IMG/VR virus record: IMGVR_UViG_3300017971_000013
Span: 1-64,000 of that record
Origin: a virus
Strand: one strand, 5' to 3'
DNA length: 64,000 bases
A program made the translations under genes and the position numbers. The notes under the pieces are model-generated. The model searched no databases. It was given only the letters and a program-made list of their open reading frames with translations, and was not told the DNA's origin. Below are positions 31,399 through 47,269 of the stretch, piece by piece. The first letter of the stretch is position 1. The number at the start of each line of letters is the position of its first letter.

Positions 31399-31784
31399 GT
31401 GACGATTTTTTCAAAGGTAAGAAGACTATCTCTCCTGAGTTTGCGGCTGCTCGTGCTGATATCGCTCTACAGCAGATTCCACCAGAGACTGTGAAACAAC
31501 AGATGCGGCGCAATAAGGTGATTAAATCAGCCGTTGTGGACTTGTTGTGTAATCGTGTGCAACCAAACACGAAGGATGGCATTCTCTTCGCATACTTTGA
31601 TGAGTTTGAAGACTTAAAGAAGGATCCTAGATTTAAGCCTCTTAGCAGCTATATCGATAAATTGGTTAGAAGAGATAAGAATGGGATGGCTATTGGATAT
31701 GTCAGACCTATTCTAGCAAATGAAGCGGGCATCATCAGATTGAGTCCGACTGAAGGGAAGATTGTGGTTCTCAAGGAGAAGTGA
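31395..31784 (+). CDS. Hypothetical protein upstream of QueE
   Basis: A 129-residue protein, helical at first and beta at the end (AGIIRLSPTEGKIVVL). Overlaps RuvC-like stop by 4 bases and ends on the QueE start codon. No recognised family. Confidence 0.6.
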   Translation: MSDDFFKGKKTISPEFAAARADIALQQIPPETVKQQMRRNKVIKSAVVDLLCNRVQPNTKDGILFAYFDEFEDLKKDPRFKPLSSYIDKLVRRDKNGMAIGYVRPILANEAGIIRLSPTEGKIVVLKEK

Positions 31785-32542
31785 TGAAGATTGTGAAAGA
31801 GAATGCGATATTCAAATCCATTCAAGGGGAAGGATCTCGTATCGGTGAACCAGCCTACTTTCTTAGATTATGGGGCTGTTCTTTAGGTTGTGATTGGTGC
31901 GACACTAAAGAATCTTGGGTCGATGAAGATAATTATATTGAGGTTGATCCTTATCAGTTAGCTGAAGACTTAAAAGATGCGATGAATGATGTGCCTAGGT
32001 TGGTGATAACTGGAGGAGAACCTTTTGATCAGATTGAAGATTTAATTTCGCTAATCTACAAGATTAATCAGATGGCTTCAAGACGAACTTTTCTGGAACG
32101 GCCATTAATCTCAGTAGAGACAGCATCAAGATTCTTCAGTCCTTACAAGTCTGAAGTGAAAAGCAGAATAGCTAGTGAGAAAGAAAAGGGTAGGCACGGT
32201 TTTTCTACGTTCGAGATGCCGTATTACCCTAATCTTATTACTTTTTCTCCAAAATTATGGGCATTTACATCAGACGACATCAAATGTCACCTGCAAGAAT
32301 TGTACGATTTAGGTTCCTATTGCTTGGAGAAAGAGGTAAAGATTGTTGTTTTTGATGATGCAGATCTTAGACGAGCTGAAAATCTTCTCGATTATGTGAG
32401 TTCAAACTTTGGTTTTCCAGAACACCGGTTGATTATTCAAATTGGCAGCGATTTAGACGAAGAACAAGAAAAGTGTCTGCTTGAAGCCGATGCGAAATAT
32501 AGGCGGTTACCTCAATTGCAGACCTTGTGGGGCATAATGTGA
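31784..32542 (+). CDS. queE: 7-carboxy-7-deazaguanine synthase (QueE)
   Basis: A 252-residue radical-SAM protein. The cluster motif is GCSLGCDWCDT (C32, C36, C39), preceded by SIQGEGSRIGEP, and followed by LVITGGEP; these are the hallmarks of QueE, which makes 7-carboxy-7-deazaguanine (CDG) from CPH4. I start at ATG 31784 with AAGGAG upstream, on the previous TGA. With FolE next door and QueD near 60 kb the CDG branch of 7-deazaguanine synthesis is complete. Confidence 0.88.
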   Translation: MKIVKENAIFKSIQGEGSRIGEPAYFLRLWGCSLGCDWCDTKESWVDEDNYIEVDPYQLAEDLKDAMNDVPRLVITGGEPFDQIEDLISLIYKINQMASRRTFLERPLISVETASRFFSPYKSEVKSRIASEKEKGRHGFSTFEMPYYPNLITFSPKLWAFTSDDIKCHLQELYDLGSYCLEKEVKIVVFDDADLRRAENLLDYVSSNFGFPEHRLIIQIGSDLDEEQEKCLLEADAKYRRLPQLQTLWGIM

Positions 32543-32564
32543 TGCAGTTTTCGGAGTTGATAAA

Positions 32565-33086
32565 ATGTCGCAACTAGAGGAAGTGACGAAGCTACTTGTC
32601 GAATCTCTCATAGAGAAGTATCAGTTGACGATAGAAGAGCAGGCATCTTTAGATCTTAAAGAGACTTCGCGCCGAGTGGCGCATGCCTTTGAAGAAATGC
32701 TGAGCGGCTACGAACTCAATAATGGGAATGGTGCTTACACTACATTCCCAGTTAGAGAGACAGAAGATCATAATGCGGTGTGCGCAAAAGGCATATCTTT
32801 TTCGAGTGTTTGTTCCCACCATCTTCTTCCTTTTATAGGTGAGATGGAAATTTACTATGTTCCTAGCAGTCGAGTTATTGGGTTGAGTAAGCTTTCTCGT
32901 ATTGTTAGAAAGTATTCTCAAAGACTACAATTACAAGAGAATCTGACGAATCAAGTGGCTGATGCCATTGTAGAGATACTGGAACCCAAGGCTTTATCTG
33001 TTACTTCTAAATGCGTACATTCGTGCGTAGCATGCAGAGGTGTGTCAGATCCTAACATGGTAATTGAAGTCGCTGTTTCTAGGTAG
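32565..33086 (+). CDS. folE: GTP cyclohydrolase I (FolE)
   Basis: A 173-residue protein. SVCSHHLLPFIGE gives the zinc ligand C83 and the catalytic H85/H86; HSCVACRG gives C154, the second zinc Cys. The IGLSKLSRIV motif is standard. FolE opens GTP to dihydroneopterin triphosphate, the first step of 7-deazaguanine (and folate) synthesis. It is the last gene of the operon, before a 1.1-kb mostly uncoded region. Confidence 0.9.
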   Translation: MSQLEEVTKLLVESLIEKYQLTIEEQASLDLKETSRRVAHAFEEMLSGYELNNGNGAYTTFPVRETEDHNAVCAKGISFSSVCSHHLLPFIGEMEIYYVPSSRVIGLSKLSRIVRKYSQRLQLQENLTNQVADAIVEILEPKALSVTSKCVHSCVACRGVSDPNMVIEVAVSR

Positions 33087-33100
33087 AAACGCCAAAAAAG

Positions 33101-33270
33101 GTGTCATTTTTTTGACACTTGGCCTCTTGTGACACCTTGTCACATTAGAGCGGACTAGGCCACGCCTAAAACCGCTCTCAAACGGCCGTAAATGCCCGAA
33201 AATGCTCGACAAATGGTAATTGTGGTCAATTGTCTCCACCTCGGAACGTGAATCGTGACACCTTGTCACG
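33101..33270. promoter_or_regulatory. Repeated GTGACA/TGTCAC palindromes (operator or enhancer sites)
   Basis: Two perfect palindromes, TGTGACA-CCT-TGTCACA (33128-33144) and CGTGACA-CCT-TGTCACG (33254-33270), plus a looser GTGTCA...TGACAC pair at 33101-33118. They share the GTGACACCTTGTCAC core, spaced 126 bases. Upstream of a sigma-54-like element, they look like activator sites. Confidence 0.5.
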
Positions 33271-34081: not shown

Positions 34082-34143
34082 GCAACGGTCTGGTGACAAG
34101 GTGTATTCCCCATACACTTTTTAGGTTCGATTCCTAACGTTGC
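34082..34143 (+). ncRNA. tRNA-like element, D-arm-less (anticodon-like CCC)
   Basis: GCAACG (34082-34087) pairs with CGTTGC (34138-34143) as an acceptor-like stem. Inside are GTGTA-TTCCCCA-TACAC, shaped like an anticodon arm with U33 and CCC, and TTAGG-TTCGATT-CCTAA, a perfect T-arm with a consensus T-loop. Between acceptor and anticodon-like arm there are only about 13 bases with no D-stem, and the variable region is 3 bases, so it is not a normal tRNA. It ends 44 bases before the ATG at 34188. Confidence 0.5.
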
Positions 34144-34157
34144 AACTTAGCAACGTT
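34136..34157. promoter_or_regulatory. 22-bp palindrome site
   Basis: AACGTTGC (34136-34143) and GCAACGTT (34150-34157) are exact inverted copies around AACTTA. It overlaps the 3' strand of the tRNA-like element and lies 30 bases before the ATG at 34188. Confidence 0.6.
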
Positions 34158-34187
34158 AAAATTCAACACACAAAAAGGGAGGGTATC

Positions 34188-34724: not shown

Positions 34725-34775
34725 ACGAGTAGGCTGAAAGCAGCTGTTAGTGGGGTGCAATTCCCTGCTACTCGT
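34725..34775 (+). ncRNA. 51-nt tRNA-like leader element, copy 1
   Basis: ACGAGT (34725-34730) pairs with ACTCGT (34770-34775). Inside: GGCTG-AAAG-CAGCT hairpin and AGTGGGG-TGCAATT-CCCTGCT, a T-arm-like hairpin with a 7-base loop. It ends 38 bases before the ATG at 34814. Its sequence differs from the copy at 35179 by six bases, four of which lie in the T-arm-like stem and keep it paired, including a G-C to A-T pair change. This is direct evidence for a conserved RNA structure. Confidence 0.7.
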
Positions 34776-34813
34776 ATTCCGTTCGACAACTCTTAATAAA
34801 AAAAGGAGCTATT

Positions 34814-35191
34814 ATGAGCCACAAGAAACAGTATGTTGTTCTTAATTCGGACGAGATTGCGGTTACTTTGTACTTTAGATTGACCACTGTGGTTGGAAAT
34901 GTAAATGAGATGATGGAGGCCGTCAGAGATGGGGTGTTTGACTATGAGTTTAAAACTATCCTTGCCGCTGGGAATATTCCTGCTGTGGTGTTTGAGGGAG
35001 ATAACGGGACGATGGTTTTTGAGTTGTGTGGTTCGAATGGCTACAGCGAAAGGTTCCAGATTGTAGAGGCTATGGTCAGAGGGTTGTGGAGTCTTCACAT
35101 CGGCGGGAACTTTAAGATGGACTTTTCAGCCTTTGAAACTAGCAGCGAGCGTGTTACGAAGCATGTGTTGTGTAATAGACGAGTAGGCTGA
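34814..35191 (+). CDS. Hypothetical protein with structured 5' leader
   Basis: A 125-residue protein behind AAAAGGAG, mixed alpha/beta (LNSDEIAVTLYFRLTTVVG). Its last codons overlap the second tRNA-like leader element. No family recognised. Confidence 0.6.
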   Translation: MSHKKQYVVLNSDEIAVTLYFRLTTVVGNVNEMMEAVRDGVFDYEFKTILAAGNIPAVVFEGDNGTMVFELCGSNGYSERFQIVEAMVRGLWSLHIGGNFKMDFSAFETSSERVTKHVLCNRRVG

Positions 35192-35229
35192 AAGCAGCCG
35201 TCAACGGGGTGCAATTCCCCGTTACTCGT
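35179..35229 (+). ncRNA. 51-nt tRNA-like leader element, copy 2
   Basis: Same fold as 34725-34775: ACGAGTA/TACTCGT closing stem, GGCTG-AAAG-CAGCC hairpin, AACGGGG-TGCAATT-CCCCGTT T-arm-like hairpin. It ends 38 bases before the ATG at 35268, the same distance as copy 1. Its 5' strand is also the last codons and stop of the upstream gene. Confidence 0.7.
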
Positions 35230-35267: not shown

Positions 35268-35471
35268 ATGCTACTTAAAGAAGAGCGCAAGCAATTGATG
35301 CAAGAAGGAGAAGTCATCCTGGCAAAGATGGAAAAGGCCAGCGCCGCCGGCCATCTTGGTAAAGTGCTGGCATACGCACAGCTGTTCGATGAGGTTATGG
35401 ATAAACTCAAATCCTTTGAACTAATCGAGACCGCCTTGAAGGCGGGGATTGGAGTGGTCAAACATGGATAA
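35268..35471 (+). CDS. Small helical protein
   Basis: A 67-residue helical protein (EERKQLMQEGEVILAKMEKA) starting at ATG 35268 behind TTGGAGG. Second gene with the 51-nt leader. Unknown function. Confidence 0.6.
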   Translation: MLLKEERKQLMQEGEVILAKMEKASAAGHLGKVLAYAQLFDEVMDKLKSFELIETALKAGIGVVKHG

Positions 35472-36016: not shown

Positions 36017-36099
36017 GCGGGCGTGGTGGAATGGTAGACACAAGAGACTTAAAATCTCTCGGCCGAAAGGCCATGCGGGTTCAAGTCCCGCCGCCCGTA
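36017..36099 (+). tRNA. tRNA-Leu (anticodon TAA)
   Basis: A complete cloverleaf: acceptor GCGGGCG (36017-36023) with CGCCCGT (one G-T at the first pair); anticodon stem AGAGA/TCTCT with loop CTTAAAA, anticodon TAA; long class II variable arm (CGGCCGAAAGGCC); T-arm GCGGG-TTCAAGT-CCCGC. Discriminator A; CCA is not encoded. It reads UUA (and UUG), useful in an AT-rich phage. It ends 41 bases before the ATG of the next gene, the same position the tRNA-like elements take upstream of theirs. Confidence 0.95.
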
Positions 36100-36140
36100 C
36101 TTCTGAGGAAATGGTCCTCATGTTTGCCCACGGAGGGAGT

Positions 36141-42322: not shown

Positions 42323-44425
42323 ATGACTAGGTACTTTTTTGCAGGAGGGGACTCTAAGCCCGCAATTAAGTGTATGCTCGCATGTGACGTCAAAAATATT
42401 CTGTTTAGCTTCTTCTATATACAGAAAAAGCGGCAGAAGAATTTTGATGCCCTTGTAAGTCAGCTGACAGAACTCAAGGAAAAAGGTGGTTATACTTTTA
42501 TCTTAGATTCTGGTGGCTTTACTTATAAAGATGTAGCGGGCCGAGGGTTTCAAACTGTTAGAAGTGAAGCAGGCGCTGTACGGACAAAGAAGCTAGATCC
42601 ATATGCGTATTTAGAGGAATACACCAAATTTCTTATACAATATGGACACTTGTTTGATGTCTGTGCAGAGTTTGAACCGGACGAAGTGTTCGGCGGCGTA
42701 GATATTGTAGATGAGAACAGAGAGAAGATGCTAGCCACCTTCGAGAAGCACGGTGTAGAGGTTAACCTCATGCCTGTGTTTGATTCTTTCATAAGGGATC
42801 TAGATACGTGGGAAGAGTGGTGTGAAGATTCTAGATACAAGCATCTTGGTTTTGTGGGAAATGATATACGTCTTGCTTCTCGTCTTGTAAATAAGGCGCA
42901 TAGACACGGCAAAAAAGTACATGGTTTCGCGCAGACTAAGATTGAGGATCTTCAAAGAGCTAAGTTTGATACTGTGGATTCTACAGGATGGATTTCTGGG
43001 CAGAAATATGGAGAGGTGTTCATATTTCAACGTGGTAAATGGACCAGACTAAACGCTACCCAAAAGAATAAGCGCAAGCTTTATAAGAACTATTTCAAGG
43101 CAATTGGGATAGATTGGGACCTCATCAATAGAGATGATCCCAATGAGTTACTTAAAGCCTCATGTTTGTCCTGGAAGCGTTTGTTTGATCACTTTGAGGC
43201 TAGGTCTATATTAGAGACAGCCAGTACCACCTCCTTAAAGAGAGCAGCACCAACAAAGCCTGTTCGTGGGGTGTTGATGCAGTTAGCTGAGCTTGGTGTA
43301 GACAAAAAACCACGGGAGCGTAATGTCCCAAAGAAGACAATCAAAGTGGGGGGTAAGATACGGCTTATGTCGACGAAAGCGACAGCGTTCGACGCACAGA
43401 AGATCATTGCACGGGCGTTGGAGTTGTCGGAACTCCCTGTCGAGGAAGCCTGGGAAAAAGCCTTTGGGCGAGATGAGCAAGAAATAACTGTTGATGAGCA
43501 AGAGATGAACGCGTTGTTTAAGCCTAAAAGAGCCAGAGGGTTTAGCCCAGAATGGTATGCGTTGCTAGACCAACAACGTCAGGTAGAAGAGGCATTAGAA
43601 AAAGTCTCGGCAGACAATGAAAAAAGAAATAATAACTGGGACAAGTTCCTGGTGACTGAGCCTCTTATGTCCGAAAACGAGGTAATTTCGCAGGGTTCCA
43701 TTTTAGGTGACACTACAGACTACACAAATATTAAACAAATTCAGGGAAATACCGCAGAAATGGCGGATGGATCGCACGTTGCTAAAGACAACGTTGTTAA
43801 TAGCAACAGAGAAACTTTAGACAGTCAAAACGACCCTACAAAGCTCACATCATCGACGATTCGTAAAAAATTGTCCGTCCATGCGTGTCATACGTGCGCA
43901 GTTTCTACCGATTGCTCTTATTATCAACCTGGCTACTTGTGTTATTACAAACCAGCATTTCAAACGTTGCAAAGTCGCAATGTTAAAGATGTGATGCAGG
44001 CGTTAGAGTATATAACGGACAAGAACCTAGAGAGAACGATGCGCGCGTTTTTGATGGAAGAGATACAGATGGGGGGTCAAGTAGACCCTCAAGCATCAAA
44101 TGTGTCTCAGTTAGCTTTCGGGCAGTTAGAGAAGCTAGCTTCACTGAAACATGCAACCAGACCCGAATCTTTCAAGGTAACACTCGAAGGACAAGGTGAG
44201 TCAGCGTCTATCTTGACCCAACTTTTATCGGGCGCAAAACAGCCCGAAGAGCCAAAACAGTTAGAAGCGCAAGAGACTAATATGATAGATGTGACACCTA
44301 AGAAGAAAGAGAGAATAGAAGAACGCGCGATAAGAGAGTCAAAACAGCAAGGTAACAGACAAGATGAATATGACATTACTGAATTAGCTACGATACAGAA
44401 AATGTTTGTTCCTGATCAACAGTAG
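42323..44425 (+). CDS. dpdA: DpdA-like DNA 7-deazaguanine transglycosylase
   Basis: A 700-residue protein. Residues 1-280 look like a TGT-type TIM barrel of the phage DpdA family: FILDSGGF near residue 54, CAEFEPDEVFGGVDIVDEN, KHLGFVGNDI, GKKVHGFAQT, then FDTVDSTGWISGQKYGE. DpdA exchanges guanine for a 7-deazaguanine base in DNA. The remaining 400 residues, charged and Gln/Glu-rich, with a Cys cluster (HACHTCAVSTDCSYY, CYY) near residue 515, are not typical of DpdA and are unrecognised. With FolE, QueD and QueE in this window the pathway is nearly complete. ATG behind TTTTGGAG. Confidence 0.7.
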   Translation: MTRYFFAGGDSKPAIKCMLACDVKNILFSFFYIQKKRQKNFDALVSQLTELKEKGGYTFILDSGGFTYKDVAGRGFQTVRSEAGAVRTKKLDPYAYLEEYTKFLIQYGHLFDVCAEFEPDEVFGGVDIVDENREKMLATFEKHGVEVNLMPVFDSFIRDLDTWEEWCEDSRYKHLGFVGNDIRLASRLVNKAHRHGKKVHGFAQTKIEDLQRAKFDTVDSTGWISGQKYGEVFIFQRGKWTRLNATQKNKRKLYKNYFKAIGIDWDLINRDDPNELLKASCLSWKRLFDHFEARSILETASTTSLKRAAPTKPVRGVLMQLAELGVDKKPRERNVPKKTIKVGGKIRLMSTKATAFDAQKIIARALELSELPVEEAWEKAFGRDEQEITVDEQEMNALFKPKRARGFSPEWYALLDQQRQVEEALEKVSADNEKRNNNWDKFLVTEPLMSENEVISQGSILGDTTDYTNIKQIQGNTAEMADGSHVAKDNVVNSNRETLDSQNDPTKLTSSTIRKKLSVHACHTCAVSTDCSYYQPGYLCYYKPAFQTLQSRNVKDVMQALEYITDKNLERTMRAFLMEEIQMGGQVDPQASNVSQLAFGQLEKLASLKHATRPESFKVTLEGQGESASILTQLLSGAKQPEEPKQLEAQETNMIDVTPKKKERIEERAIRESKQQGNRQDEYDITELATIQKMFVPDQQ

Positions 44426-44570
44426 CTTGATCGGCGCAAATCACTGTTGTAATATTGATCTTTACGTAAGAGAGGTAACACCTAAAAAAAACTTTGTTGT
44501 AAAAGAAGGTGAACCATGAACAACGAGGGTTAAACCCCTCAAGGATCGGTCTTTTCAGGACCTAGACCAT

Positions 44571-44612
44571 TACCCCGATTGAGTGTCAAAAACTTGGTCG
44601 GGGTATTTTTTT
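44571..44612 (+). terminator. Rho-independent terminator after the DpdA-like gene
   Basis: TACCCCGA (44571-44578) pairs with TCGGGGTA (44598-44605), then seven T. Upstream, 44,490-44,570, are small hairpins including GGTCT...AGACC (44549-44569) and a tiny ATG frame (MNNEG); a preQ1-type aptamer was sought there and not found. Confidence 0.75.
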
Positions 44613-44616
44613 GCCT

Positions 44617-44638
44617 AACATTGCACTATTGCAACATC
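44617..44638. promoter_or_regulatory. 22-bp palindrome site
   Basis: AACATTGCA-CTAT-TGCAACATC, degenerate at the outer bases, 22 bases before the ATG at 44660. Confidence 0.5.
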
Positions 44639-44659
44639 AAAACAAAAGGAGGAGACAAA

Positions 44660-44881
44660 ATGAACGTCACACTATACGTAACAGAAGAGACAAAGAAAGA
44701 CATGGAGTATCTTAAGAAGTATCACAACTTCAAACCAAGTAAACTACTACAGGAGGTAACAACGCTCATCATGGAGAAAACTGAGATCTGTGCTGGTTGT
44801 CCAGCTCGAGCCGATGAAACGTGCGCGGTGTGTAAGTATAACTCTGTGACTATTATAGTAGAGAAACACTTAAAGAGATGA
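44660..44881 (+). CDS. RHH-like small protein with CxxC pairs
   Basis: A 73-residue protein behind AAAGGAGGAG. The N-terminus (MNVTLYVTEETKKDMEYLKK) is like a ribbon-helix-helix strand plus helix; the C-terminal part has CAGCP and CAVC, a likely zinc site. It may be a DNA-binding regulator. A Cys-rich frame continues after its TGA (see next). Confidence 0.65.
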   Translation: MNVTLYVTEETKKDMEYLKKYHNFKPSKLLQEVTTLIMEKTEICAGCPARADETCAVCKYNSVTIIVEKHLKR

Positions 44882-45076
44882 CGCTCCCCCGGAGACACCT
44901 CAACGTCTTGTGGCGTGGTCTGTAACTACTGTTATGAGAGTATAACAGGCATTCCTTACATAGATGTTGAGGTGGAAGATATTGTCTATTGTGAGTCTTG
45001 TGCAGCTAAATTAGGAGGAACATATAATCTGGGGGTAATAGTCAACGGTCACGTGCAATCTAACGTCGGTGAATAA
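44878..45076 (+). pseudogene. Frameshifted (or recoded) small zinc-ribbon gene
   Basis: A coding-like frame ending at TAA 45074-45076 reads CGVVCNYCYESITGIPYID...VYCESCAAKLGG, two CxxC pairs typical of the zinc-ribbon family common in this phage. It has no start codon of its own. The ATG at 44878 (overlapping the previous TGA) is in another frame, and the two frames meet across CCCCC at 44886-44890. Removing one C gives a continuous 65-residue ORF from that ATG. So this is a one-base frameshift, a sequencing error in the homopolymer, or +1 recoding on CCC-C. Readthrough of the upstream TGA would also enter this frame. Confidence 0.6.
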
Positions 45077-45125
45077 GAGGAGGGCAATCTAAAAGTATCC
45101 AGCGGGAATGAGATGAAAGAAAGTC

Positions 45126-45166
45126 CCCTCCGGCAGGAGGGTTAGGGTGTCGTTGTATTACCCTAA
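45126..45166 (+). repeat. Two adjacent hairpins
   Basis: CCCTCC-GGCA-GGAGGG (45126-45141) and TTAGGGT...ACCCTAA (45142-45166), back to back in non-coding DNA; followed by short GA and CA repeats (45165-45190). They open the 1.5-kb non-coding region. Confidence 0.5.
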
Positions 45167-45315
45167 GAGAGAGAGACACACACACATACATAAGAGCATA
45201 CAAGGAGGACAAGAGAGACAGAGTGACCCGATACCCACCGCATAAGACCTATTGTTTAGAGCATTCTTCACATAGAGGTGGAGTTACTCACATGAGTGGC
45301 AGTCCTCAGAAGTGT

Positions 45316-45395
45316 AAAGTGGAGTACCTAGGGGCCAGGTGGGGACTATACGTTATGAGCATATGCCCATAACCTAGTGTCTGCCATTCCACTTT
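45316..45395. repeat. Large inverted repeat (cruciform-like)
   Basis: AAAGTGGA (45316-45323) pairs with TCCACTTT (45388-45395); inside, GTTATG pairs with CATAAC around 45,352-45,373. A CACCTAGGTG palindrome lies at 45420-45429. No coding frame is convincing between 45,077 and 46,593. Confidence 0.45.
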
Positions 45396-45543
45396 TGTTC
45401 ATCTACAACGTGTAAATGGCACCTAGGTGTACCCTAGACCCCCCCTGAGACCAACCTCAGTCCCCCTCACGCCCAGTAAAGTGATCAGTCAGTGAAAAGG
45501 GTCAGTCTTTGGGGGAGTGTATGGGGAGTTCAGTGTCGGGGCA

Positions 45544-45625
45544 GTGAGTTGGGAGTGAGTATTAAGTGAGTTCTTAACGAGAGTGAGTAGCCGAGAGCCC
45601 TCCTGCAGTGAGTGAGTCAGTGAGT
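45544..45625 (+). repeat. GTGAGT repeats, partly at 11-bp spacing
   Basis: GTGAGT occurs at 45544, 45555, 45566 (11 bases apart, one helical turn), 45583, 45608, 45612 and 45620. Part of the candidate origin. Confidence 0.6.
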
Positions 45626-45637
45626 TTCTTCTGTGCG

Positions 45638-45929
45638 ATAAAGTGACACTCCACCAACCACCTCTTATCTCCAAACATTGCCACTTGGCAACCTCAAAAA
45701 GTCCACGTTCATACATTATAAAGTGATATCTTCAGACATCCTCTGTCAGGCAGCGACCATTTCCTACCTTAGCTGTCATTTTCCACTCAAAAAGTCTCGG
45801 CGTGAACGTTATAAAGTGCATGTGTACCTACTATAAAGTGTATACAGAGCACCAATAAAGTGATGTCTCGCAGCAGTTGGTAGTACAGAGCTATGCGAAA
45901 TAAAGTGTTGCGGCGAAAGAGATAAAGTG
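45638..45929 (+). repeat. ATAAAGTG iteron-like repeats
   Basis: Exact ATAAAGTG starts at 45638, 45718, 45811, 45833, 45855, 45900 and 45922. The last five are spaced 22, 22, 45 and 22 bases, the classical spacing of replication-initiator iterons. Two copies (45718, 45811) are preceded at 25 bases by CTCAAAAAGTC, so a longer 93-bp-spaced repeat exists. A degenerate copy (ATAAGTG) is at 45951 and TAAAGTGAT at 45477. Confidence 0.7.
45674..45695. promoter_or_regulatory. 22-bp palindrome inside the candidate origin
   Basis: AACATTGCCA-CT-TGGCAACCTC: a perfect TTGCCA/TGGCAA core. No gene starts nearby, unlike most other sites. Confidence 0.55.
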
Positions 45930-45995
45930 TGGGCCAAAGTCTCATAGGAAATAAGTGACGCAGCTGCCGGAGCGGACGGACGAGGTCAGTGGTGT

Positions 45996-46118
45996 CCATA
46001 TTCGGCCATTGACCACATATGGCGATTGAGGTGTCCATATATGGTGATCACCGCATATGGTGAATCCGACCCTTCTATCCATATATGGCGATTCACCCCA
46101 AAATTCGACCATATCTGG
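45996..46118. repeat. CCATATATGG repeat cluster
   Basis: Six copies or near-copies: 45996, 46013, 46035, 46051 (CCGCATATGG), 46079 and 46109, several followed by CGAT or TGAT. Two exact copies (46035, 46079) match the pair at 47697 and 47753. Palindromic, AT-rich; likely protein-binding sites of the origin region. Confidence 0.6.
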
Positions 46119-46218
46119 CGAATATCCTTTTAAACCCTTGAAACCATGGGTGAAATTCGATCCATCTCTGAAACCCCTCATTTCGGGACACGAAAGCTCT
46201 ATATAATGATAAGGGCGA

Positions 46219-46337
46219 CTGTGGCAAAATGTATACACTGTATATTCAGAGCAACACTTGGTTTGAGCGAGCAACCATGCGGACATGAGCAAATACGTCC
46301 TATACCTACATGTCATACTGTATACATTTTGCTACAG
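46219..46337. repeat. 18-bp inverted repeat with TATAAT upstream
   Basis: CTGTGGCAAAATGTATAC (46219-46236) and GTATACATTTTGCTACAG (46320-46337) are inverted with one mismatch, enclosing 83 bases. A perfect TATAAT lies at 46202-46207 without a clear -35. A short non-coding transcript here is possible. Confidence 0.5.
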
Positions 46338-46350
46338 GGTGTTGTGTTGA

Positions 46351-46372
46351 CACCTTGCCATTTGGCAACGTC
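46351..46372. promoter_or_regulatory. 22-bp palindrome site
   Basis: CACCTTGCCA-TT-TGGCAACGTC, core perfect. TTGCCA with TGTACA 17 bases later could be a promoter. Next coding start is 46594. Between them lie three hairpins (about 46,518-46,578: TGTTCG/CGAACA, AGCAAG/CTTGCT, GGTCCC/GGGACC). Confidence 0.5.
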
Positions 46373-46593
46373 TGTTCTGTACAGGTTGTACTTTTTTCAA
46401 CCTTTTTACACTCTGTAACATATTGTAATTATGTACAAAACAGCCACAGGCCGAAATTCGACCCAAAAAAACGACACAAAAAAGCGATGGTTGGTATCGA
46501 ACCTGCAATTTAACCTTTGTGTTCGCGGGGGCGAACAAGGGAAGCAAGCCCTACTTGCTAAGGTCCCTTAGGGGACCAAACAGCGGAGCTATC

Positions 46594-46830
46594 ATGGAAT
46601 TGCTAGCTATCATCATGTTTTCGTTCCTTGGTCTGTTCGTTTCTTCTGTTGTAATTCAGAGCAACCTTGCCGTTGTCGTCGCGGCGACTAATCGTAAGAA
46701 CTATCTCGATTTCTGCGAGAATGTAGATAGCGAGCTGAAAGCTATTCATAGACAAATGTACGTAGACGAGATTGTCGCTGAAAGCGACATTTACGCGGCT
46801 GTTGATTGTTTGGGTCTGAGACTACGCTAA
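46594..46830 (+). CDS. Small one-pass membrane protein
   Basis: A 78-residue protein. The N-terminus is a membrane segment (LLAIIMFSFLGLFVSSVVI), then an acidic helical part. Start ATG 46594 behind GGAG; an in-frame upstream ATG at 46519 lies in leader hairpins. Its stop codon is inside the tRNA-like element at 46823. Confidence 0.6.
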   Translation: MELLAIIMFSFLGLFVSSVVIQSNLAVVVAATNRKNYLDFCENVDSELKAIHRQMYVDEIVAESDIYAAVDCLGLRLR

Positions 46831-46867
46831 AACGGTTTTAGGGCGGTTCGATTCCGCCCTTAGCGTA
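46823..46867 (+). ncRNA. tRNA-like acceptor/T-arm element
   Basis: TACGCT (46823-46828) pairs with AGCGTA (46862-46867); inside are a small AAAA-CGG-TTTT hairpin and a strong T-arm GGGCGG-TTCGATT-CCGCCC with a consensus T-loop. Same plan as the elements at 34082, 34725 and 35179, and like 35179 its 5' strand holds the end of the upstream gene. Two more hairpins follow (CCTCTCAA/TTGAGAGG at 46871-46891 and GGCGC/GCGCC at 46902-46918) before the ATG at 46937. Confidence 0.6.
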
Positions 46868-46936: not shown

Positions 46937-47269
46937 ATGCCCACTAAGAACACTAAAAACACAAAAACGATGATTGACCGACTTCGTGCATTGGCCGTAA
47001 ACGGCGACCTGTTCATCCCCTTGGATAGCAAGGGTGAGAAGGTGCTTGAAGCTATCACCTTGAATCAGCTGTTGCAGGCTAGCGCAGGAATCGAACCGTG
47101 TCACGTTGAAGCGGTCTGGCGCTTAGAAGGTAAGGGTGGTTCGTGGTTGTATGAGCGTCGTTTCAAGGGCGGACCACAGATGAAGCGTATCAAACTGCGG
47201 ACACCTATCGAAGGTGTCGTTGTTTCCTTCCCTTCTGGCGATGATACAGAAGACACCGATCTCTGGTAG
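46937..47269 (+). CDS. Hypothetical protein
   Basis: A 110-residue protein behind AGGAG. Basic start (PTKNTKNTKTMIDRLRAL), Trp-rich middle, acidic end. Unknown. Confidence 0.6.
   Translation: MPTKNTKNTKTMIDRLRALAVNGDLFIPLDSKGEKVLEAITLNQLLQASAGIEPCHVEAVWRLEGKGGSWLYERRFKGGPQMKRIKLRTPIEGVVVSFPSGDDTEDTDLW

Follow-up and report, generated by a model that had tools for sequence, protein, structure and literature searches.

The window, that is, the whole 64,000-nt stretch of DNA analysed here, corresponds to bases 1-64000 of an IMG/VR phage record of 103,595 bp, which probably represents a complete phage genome because it carries a 123-bp terminal repeat. The presence of sheath, portal and capsid proteins identifies a contractile-tailed phage, and its nearest relatives by protein, all of them distant, are Streptomyces phage BRock, Bacteroides phage BS162P1 and the IMG/VR contig G001. 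Genes for queE, folE and a DpdA-like transglycosylase are located at 31781-33086 and 42323-44425, and their products make a 7-deazaguanine modification of the phage DNA probable. The features relevant to this study are the following:

34082..34144, plus strand: T1, cloverleaf-like element 43 nt before ATG 34188; stem GCAACG/CGTTGC, 3-bp D-like hairpin with loop TGGT, 8-9-bp anticodon-like stem, T-arm TTAGG-TTCGATT-CCTAA
34188..34505, plus strand: ORF of 105 aa, 3' of T1
34725..34775, plus strand: T2; acceptor ACGAGTA/TACTCGT, hairpin GGCTG-AAAG-CAGCT, linker GTTA, T-arm GTGGGG-TGCAATT-CCCTGC
34814..35191, plus strand: ORF of 125 aa, 38 nt 3' of T2; no family found; its stop codon lies within T3
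35179..35229, plus strand: T3; acceptor ACGAGTA/TACTCGT, hairpin GGCTG-AAAG-CAGCC, linker GTCA, T-arm ACGGGG-TGCAATT-CCCCGT
35268..35471, plus strand: ORF of 67 aa, 38 nt 3' of T3; no clear family
36017..36100, plus strand: true tRNA-Leu(UAA) with no encoded CCA, at the equivalent intergenic position, 40 nt before ATG 36141
46823..46867, plus strand: T4; acceptor TACGCTAA/TTAGCGTA, unpaired D-loop-like insert AACGGTTTTA, T-arm GGGCGG-TTCGATT-CCGCCC
46937..47269, plus strand: ORF of 110 aa, 3' of T4
genome 66473-66522 (L002:2473-2522, outside the window), coding strand: T5, 27 nt before ATG 66550

Five tRNA-like elements in one phage genome

The original prediction described T2 and T3 as two 51-nt elements ending 38 nt before an ATG, and its coordinates, length and spacing are correct. 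Each comprises a 7-bp acceptor-like stem, a 5-bp hairpin and a 6-bp T-arm closed by the 7-nt loop UGCAAUU. The resulting three-way junction is both the minimum free energy (MFE) and the centroid structure of the two copies in RNAfold (T2, -19.6 kcal/mol, z -2.2; T3, -25.5 kcal/mol, z -4.4), in agreement with the closing stem, hairpin and T-arm-like loop that had been claimed for them. Both downstream ATGs (34814 and 35268) have a Shine-Dalgarno (SD) sequence located outside the fold, and tRNA-mimic translation control, one of the functions initially suggested, gained no specific support.

T2 and T3 differ at 6 of 51 positions, all by transitions, and their identity falls to chance-like levels within 15-30 nt outside the element. 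Five of the six differences lie in stems with pairing kept, and 18/18 pairs are kept in both copies; four pairs vary, one on both sides (G-C/A-U) and three on one side (U-G/C-G once, G-U/G-C twice). The compensatory changes invoked in the prediction are thus real as far as all pairs are kept, but they carry little weight: six random transitions would keep every pair with a chance of 0.10-0.14. We have therefore rejected this covariation as a stand-alone argument, since with a single two-sided pair and a 10-14% chance expectation two copies alone are no proof of selection on the fold.

The number of elements had been understated, as the genome contains three more of the same kind (T1, T4 and T5). 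A descriptor combining a T-arm with a 7-nt T-loop, an abutting acceptor stem and a short 5' insert yielded scores of 25.5, 23.5, 23.5, 20.6 and 19.5 for the five elements in the 103.6-kb genome, followed by 18 (inside the tRNA-Leu) and then 16. At scores of at least 20 there are four hits in the genome, compared with 0.08 per shuffled genome. All five elements are on the coding strand, about 45-64 nt long and located 27-69 nt before an SD-bearing ATG, T4 overlapping the stop codon of the upstream ORF and lying 69 nt before ATG 46937. Their acceptor stems have 7-8 bp in T2-T5 and 6 bp in T1, their T-arms 5-6 bp, and in every case both stems are paired perfectly or nearly so. T1, T4 and T5 carry the canonical T-loop UUCGAUU; T1 has an additional long stem at the position of the anticodon arm, and T4 and T5 have none. 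For T5, the MFE structure differs from the exact tRNA-like fold. As to the tRNA-Leu that had been noted at the equivalent place of the next operon, the gene is real and its spacing is 40 nt instead of the 41 nt originally given.

Relation to known RNAs and occurrence in other phages

An acceptor stem stacked on a T-arm with a U54..A58 T-loop is recognizable by sequence in T1-T5 and by predicted fold in T2, T3 and T4. ARAGORN called none of the five, and Rfam searches covering the entire genome, window included, and the related loci found only tRNA. T1 reaches 14 bits against the Rfam tRNA model (cut-off 29). The best match of T5 is a weak one to the tRNA-Sec model (17.3 bits, cut-off 47), with the anticodon arm deleted in the alignment, and the T-arm of T4 aligns, also weakly, to that of tmRNA (11.5 bits). 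The elements resemble tRNA (RF00005, clan CL00001) in their 7-8-bp acceptor stem, in the T-arm abutting its 3' strand and in that true tRNA-Leu or tRNA-Gly genes occupy equivalent sites. At the D-loop-like position, where tRNA has G18 G19, T1, T4 and T5 have GG, and T2 and T3 have AG, with a matching change in the T-loop. They differ from it in their size (45-51 nt, and 63 nt for T1), in scoring under the tRNA-model cut-off and in the anticodon arm, since T2-T5 have none with a 7-nt loop and T1 has an abnormal 8-9-bp stem instead. With that arm absent or distorted, most of the elements, judged by their sequence, would be unable to decode.

In the tRNA-like domain of tmRNA (RF00023, RF01851), too, the acceptor stem and T-arm are accompanied by a reduced D-arm and the anticodon arm is missing, and the T-loop UGCAAUU is likewise found in phage sequences resembling tmRNA 3' ends (L177, L183). 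However, the 51-nt elements have no tag reading frame, P2 helix or pseudoknot domain, compared with about 350 nt for tmRNA, and no Rfam tmRNA score exceeded the cut-off. Sequences resembling phage tmRNA 3' ends, with the T-loop UGCAAUU, were seen in L177, L183 and L197 as well as in L155, L180 and L230.

The prediction had named an absence of similar elements in relatives as evidence against it, and the outcome of this check is divided: the closest relative is without them, whereas unrelated phages have them. G001, whose capsid protein is 52% identical and which is syntenic, shows no elements in the corresponding interval between folE and dpdA. A DNA polymerase search of IMG/VR for close relatives returned none, and about 2 Mb of sequence searched from the 80 contigs related by major capsid protein contained no convincing mini-elements beyond real tRNAs. 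With T3 as the query, blastn against phage records gave only an 18-nt chance match. With T5, it led to elements that lie between genes, without annotation, in phages of Microbacterium, Mycobacterium and Streptomyces.

Among them, five Microbacterium Ilzatviruses (L151, L272, L275, L276 and L278) share an unannotated tRNA-like element about 50 nt 5' of the DNA polymerase I gene, with an H-type pseudoknot between the acceptor stem and the T-arm. Covariation is strong: in these five sequences 98.2% of cells are paired and eight pairs are two-sided, a covariation score reached by 0/500 shuffles, compared with 33-43% paired in slid registers. The Microbacterium phages Hamlet, Balsa and BeeBee8 carry a different element at the same DNA polymerase I site. 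Unannotated RNAs of about 100 nt closed by a tRNA-like acceptor stem and T-arm are present in three cluster L mycobacteriophages (L148, L149, L152) and in Streptomyces phage Geonosis (L150); those of the cluster L phages are near the excise gene and could be related to attP.

IMG/VR was further scanned with the T2/T3 T-arm core and with two D-loop/T-arm patterns. Similar elements of 40-55 nt, mostly intergenic and co-oriented with genes, occur in unrelated phages. The T-arm core GGGGTGCAATTCCCC has acceptor-like flank pairing in 11 of 59 unrelated contexts as opposed to 1.8% with swapped flanks; that is, for a fixed T-arm, the element's own flanks show acceptor pairing ten times as often as swapped ones. 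Examples are L179 (TCGAAT TGC-TAGA-GCA TTTA AGGGGG TGCAATT CCCCCT ATTCGA), L504 (AGCTAG CGCA-AAAGG-TGCG TTT GTGAGG TTCGATT CCTTGC CTAGCT) and the stemless L422 (GGGATAG AAAGGTTATT GCAGG TTCGATT CCTGC CTATTCC). An unbiased scan added more mini-elements, with two or three in several phages. Co-orientation with both flanking genes prevails by 19 to 5 (p 0.007). Across 46 mini-elements the base after the acceptor stem is A in 17, T in 12, C in 11 and G in 6, which is not a strong preference for A/G. Neither Rfam nor the open-access literature searched holds a description of such phage elements. In Streptomyces phage BRock, one of 33 tRNA matches is a 58-nt tRNA-Gly(UCC)-like gene seemingly devoid of a D-arm (L113:7485-7542).

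A series of elements at one site is offered by a family located before the capsid gene of T7-like cyanophages (33 IMG/VR sequences examined). In NATL1A-7 this site is occupied by a true tRNA-Gly(UCC); in S-TIP37 by a mini-element with a UUC loop and GG insert (AACTGAT CTGGTGATTTAT GGGGGG TTCGATT CCCCCC TTCAGTT), the MFE structure of this segment differing from the exact tRNA-like fold; and in other phages by mini-elements of the UGC/AG type, with the hairpin loops TAAAAG (S-SBP1), TTAAAG (P-SSP7 and P-SSP2) and GTAG (P-GSP1). A common conserved sequence follows the tRNA-Gly and the mini-elements, and the latter persist through complete sequence turnover of their stems. Because a decoding tRNA and non-decoding mini-elements replace each other at one site, these sequences suggest selection for a tRNA elbow at a given position and not for decoding. 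The tRNA-like architecture originally proposed for T2 and T3, and their comparison with the tRNA-Leu of the next operon, are hence supported by equivalents in other phages and by a site that these share with a true tRNA.

At the same capsid site, the place of a tRNA-like element is taken in NATL2A-133, 9515-10a and S-RIP2 (L529, L530 and L531) by a 9-10-bp stem whose 15-nt loop, CACCTCAGAGTCGGA, is conserved, and P-RSP2 gave no match.

Proposed role in message processing and alternative explanations

T1-T5 are predicted to retain the outer half of a tRNA, with the acceptor stem stacked on the T-arm and accompanied by a short D-arm or D-loop, and lie between genes within a polycistronic RNA. 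Mitochondrial transcripts are punctuated by whole tRNAs, and T7 mRNA is cut by RNase III at long hairpins, one such site preceding capsid gene 10. The phage elements are comparable in their position between genes of a polycistronic transcript, as proposed cut sites, and differ from both systems in being neither whole tRNAs nor long hairpins. MALAT1 mascRNA and the tRNA-like structures of plant viruses are likewise tRNA mimics that recruit tRNA enzymes from within an mRNA or lncRNA; these, in contrast, are located at the 3' ends of eukaryotic or RNA-virus transcripts, whereas the phage elements are smaller and stand between genes of a dsDNA phage.

Bacterial RNase P cuts hairpins made of an acceptor stem and a T-arm at the correct site (PMC11143913); it measures a 12-bp stem plus T-loop and accepts phage and mRNA substrates, including phi80 M3 RNA (PMC10731613). 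In this regard, the acceptor/T stack has 13 bp in T2, T3 and T5, 14 in T4 and 11 in T1, and 12-14 bp in 32 of the 46 mini-elements. The elements share with known RNase P substrates (AT1/minihelix models, phi80 M3 RNA, hisCD mRNA and the pbuE riboswitch) a T-loop-capped stack of about 12 bp within a longer transcript, and differ from them in being natural, intergenic and present several times per genome, with cleavage proposed, and in having no 3' RCCA.

The elbow would offer a second point of contact. In tRNA, G18 contacts U55 and G19 pairs with C56; the latter pair forms the face that RNase P grips, and the elbow is held by RNase Z as well (PMC4810234). In uncurated mini-elements with a UUC loop, GG is present in the insert of 19 of 22, compared with 11 of 22 control sequences of equal length and with 7 of 16 elements with a UGC loop (p 0.012), C56 being partly fixed by the search patterns. 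A curated set, which includes T1, T4 and T5 on one side and T2 on the other (T3 has the loops of T2), gives GG in 14/14 UUC-loop versus 0/9 UGC-loop elements, these having been chosen and delimited after the pattern was seen. The short D-arm or bare D-loop of T1-T5 could dock on the T-loop and form such an elbow.

We propose that host RNase P, on the 5' side, and RNase Z, on the 3' side, would recognize the 11-14-bp stack and the elbow and cut. The upstream message would thereby acquire its 3' end, and the one downstream would begin at a new 5' end, 27-69 nt ahead of the start codon. That the elements exist as a structural class is, in our view, nearly certain, being well supported by the predicted fold, by where the elements lie, by their reappearance in other phages and by one locus at which they alternate with a true tRNA. 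That they are recognized by these enzymes and set mRNA ends we put at even odds, as the match to the RNase P ruler (11-14 bp) is set against the missing 3' CCA: no RCCA, which bacterial RNase P favours, follows the acceptor stem in T1-T5, and the tRNA-Leu of this phage has no CCA either. The situation in G001, in the three cyanophages with a different capsid-site stem-loop and in P-RSP2 also speaks against processing, as do the lack of a strong A/G preference after the acceptor stem, the rival hairpin open to the 3' acceptor strand of T1 and the inexact match of the T5 and S-TIP37 MFE structures to the tRNA-like fold. The complete reading, namely a widespread and uncatalogued class of 40-55-nt anticodon-less phage RNAs that punctuate messages through host RNase P and RNase Z, have coevolving D- and T-loops (GG-UUC, AG-UGC) and are swapped with true tRNAs at the same site, receives a probability of roughly 0.4.

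Three other explanations seem unlikely to us, to a similar degree. According to the first, the elements are decayed tRNA genes, acquired by the phage, deprived of their anticodon arm and on their way out. A working tRNA-Leu nearby, the still cloverleaf-like T1 and the occurrence of some other mini-elements in tRNA-rich phages are in line with this notion. Decay, however, should break stems first, and the acceptor and T stems are (near-)perfect in all five elements; T2 and T3 kept their 18 pairs through six changes, a weak argument, and the cyanophage mini-elements persist at one locus while their stem sequences turned over completely. Moreover, several phages that bear mini-elements have few or no tRNAs.

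Improbable, too, is the view that the functional product is a stable RNA of about 50 nt, excised and CCA-added, which acts as a mimic or decoy for EF-Tu, the CCA-adding enzyme or nucleases, with the mRNA as a mere carrier. Many tRNA-binding proteins recognize the elbow and the acceptor (PMC4810234), and phi80 M3 RNA shows that an RNase P substrate can come from a phage (PMC10731613); yet no CCA is encoded, and a role in cis is favoured by the conserved position before the capsid gene and by how closely the elements are tied to the starts and stops of genes.

Such a role could also be fulfilled without cutting, by 3'-end stabilizers, transcription attenuators or leaders tuning the translation of the next gene, an alternative to which we give equally low credence. 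It accommodates the many elements that overlap the stop codon of the preceding ORF or follow immediately on it (T3, T4, L231) and the distance of 27-69 nt to the next ATG. The SD sequences, however, are outside the fold, and a generic stem would require neither a T-loop nor a D-loop mimic, nor interchange with a true tRNA-Gly. Intrinsic termination as such was rejected, as no U-tract follows T2, T3 or T4 and a terminator-like one is found in only 3 of the 46 mini-elements.

Finally, it is very improbable, and for this genome largely refuted, that the hairpins arose by chance or were copied, in the manner of attP, from the 3' ends of host tRNAs. Temperate phages carry T-arm and 3' acceptor copies at attP, and the cluster L matches near the excise gene are possibly of that type. 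Against this explanation stand the 0.08 hits in shuffles at the observed score, five copies in one phage, the presence of both acceptor strands and a profile search in which no tyrosine integrase (PF00589) matched in the genome.

If the processing reading is true, the role of these elements would parallel that of the RNase III sites in T7, phages would be relying on the most highly conserved of the host enzymes for RNA processing to cut their messages, and current annotation tools would be missing the cutting signals. It would also explain some odd placements of phage 'tRNAs', provide a testable rule for reading phage operon structure and make available tRNAs that nature has reduced step by step, from which to learn how small a part of a tRNA suffices for its enzymes, together with a naturally occurring alteration of the conserved 18-55 contact in the elbow.

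Sequences flanking the elements

The 3' acceptor strand of T1 (34135-34160) can pair with the downstream GCAACGTTA in a rival 9-bp hairpin, and for this reason T1 may alternate between two structures. Two identical copies of the inverted repeat GTGACACCTTGTCAC (33129-33143 and 33255-33269; 0.1 expected) lie in the noncoding region ahead of T1, as does, at about 33335, a sigma-54 promoter-like motif, TGGCATGCATCCTGCA. Directly 5' of the ORF leading into T4 there is a long and largely gene-poor region (44426-46590). Directly 5' of T5 (genome 66383-66472, L002:2383-2472) there is a tandem array of three 8-bp hairpins whose loops, of the TTGTAGTAAT type, are nearly identical; their stems show compensatory changes, and the region has a z-score of -6.4.
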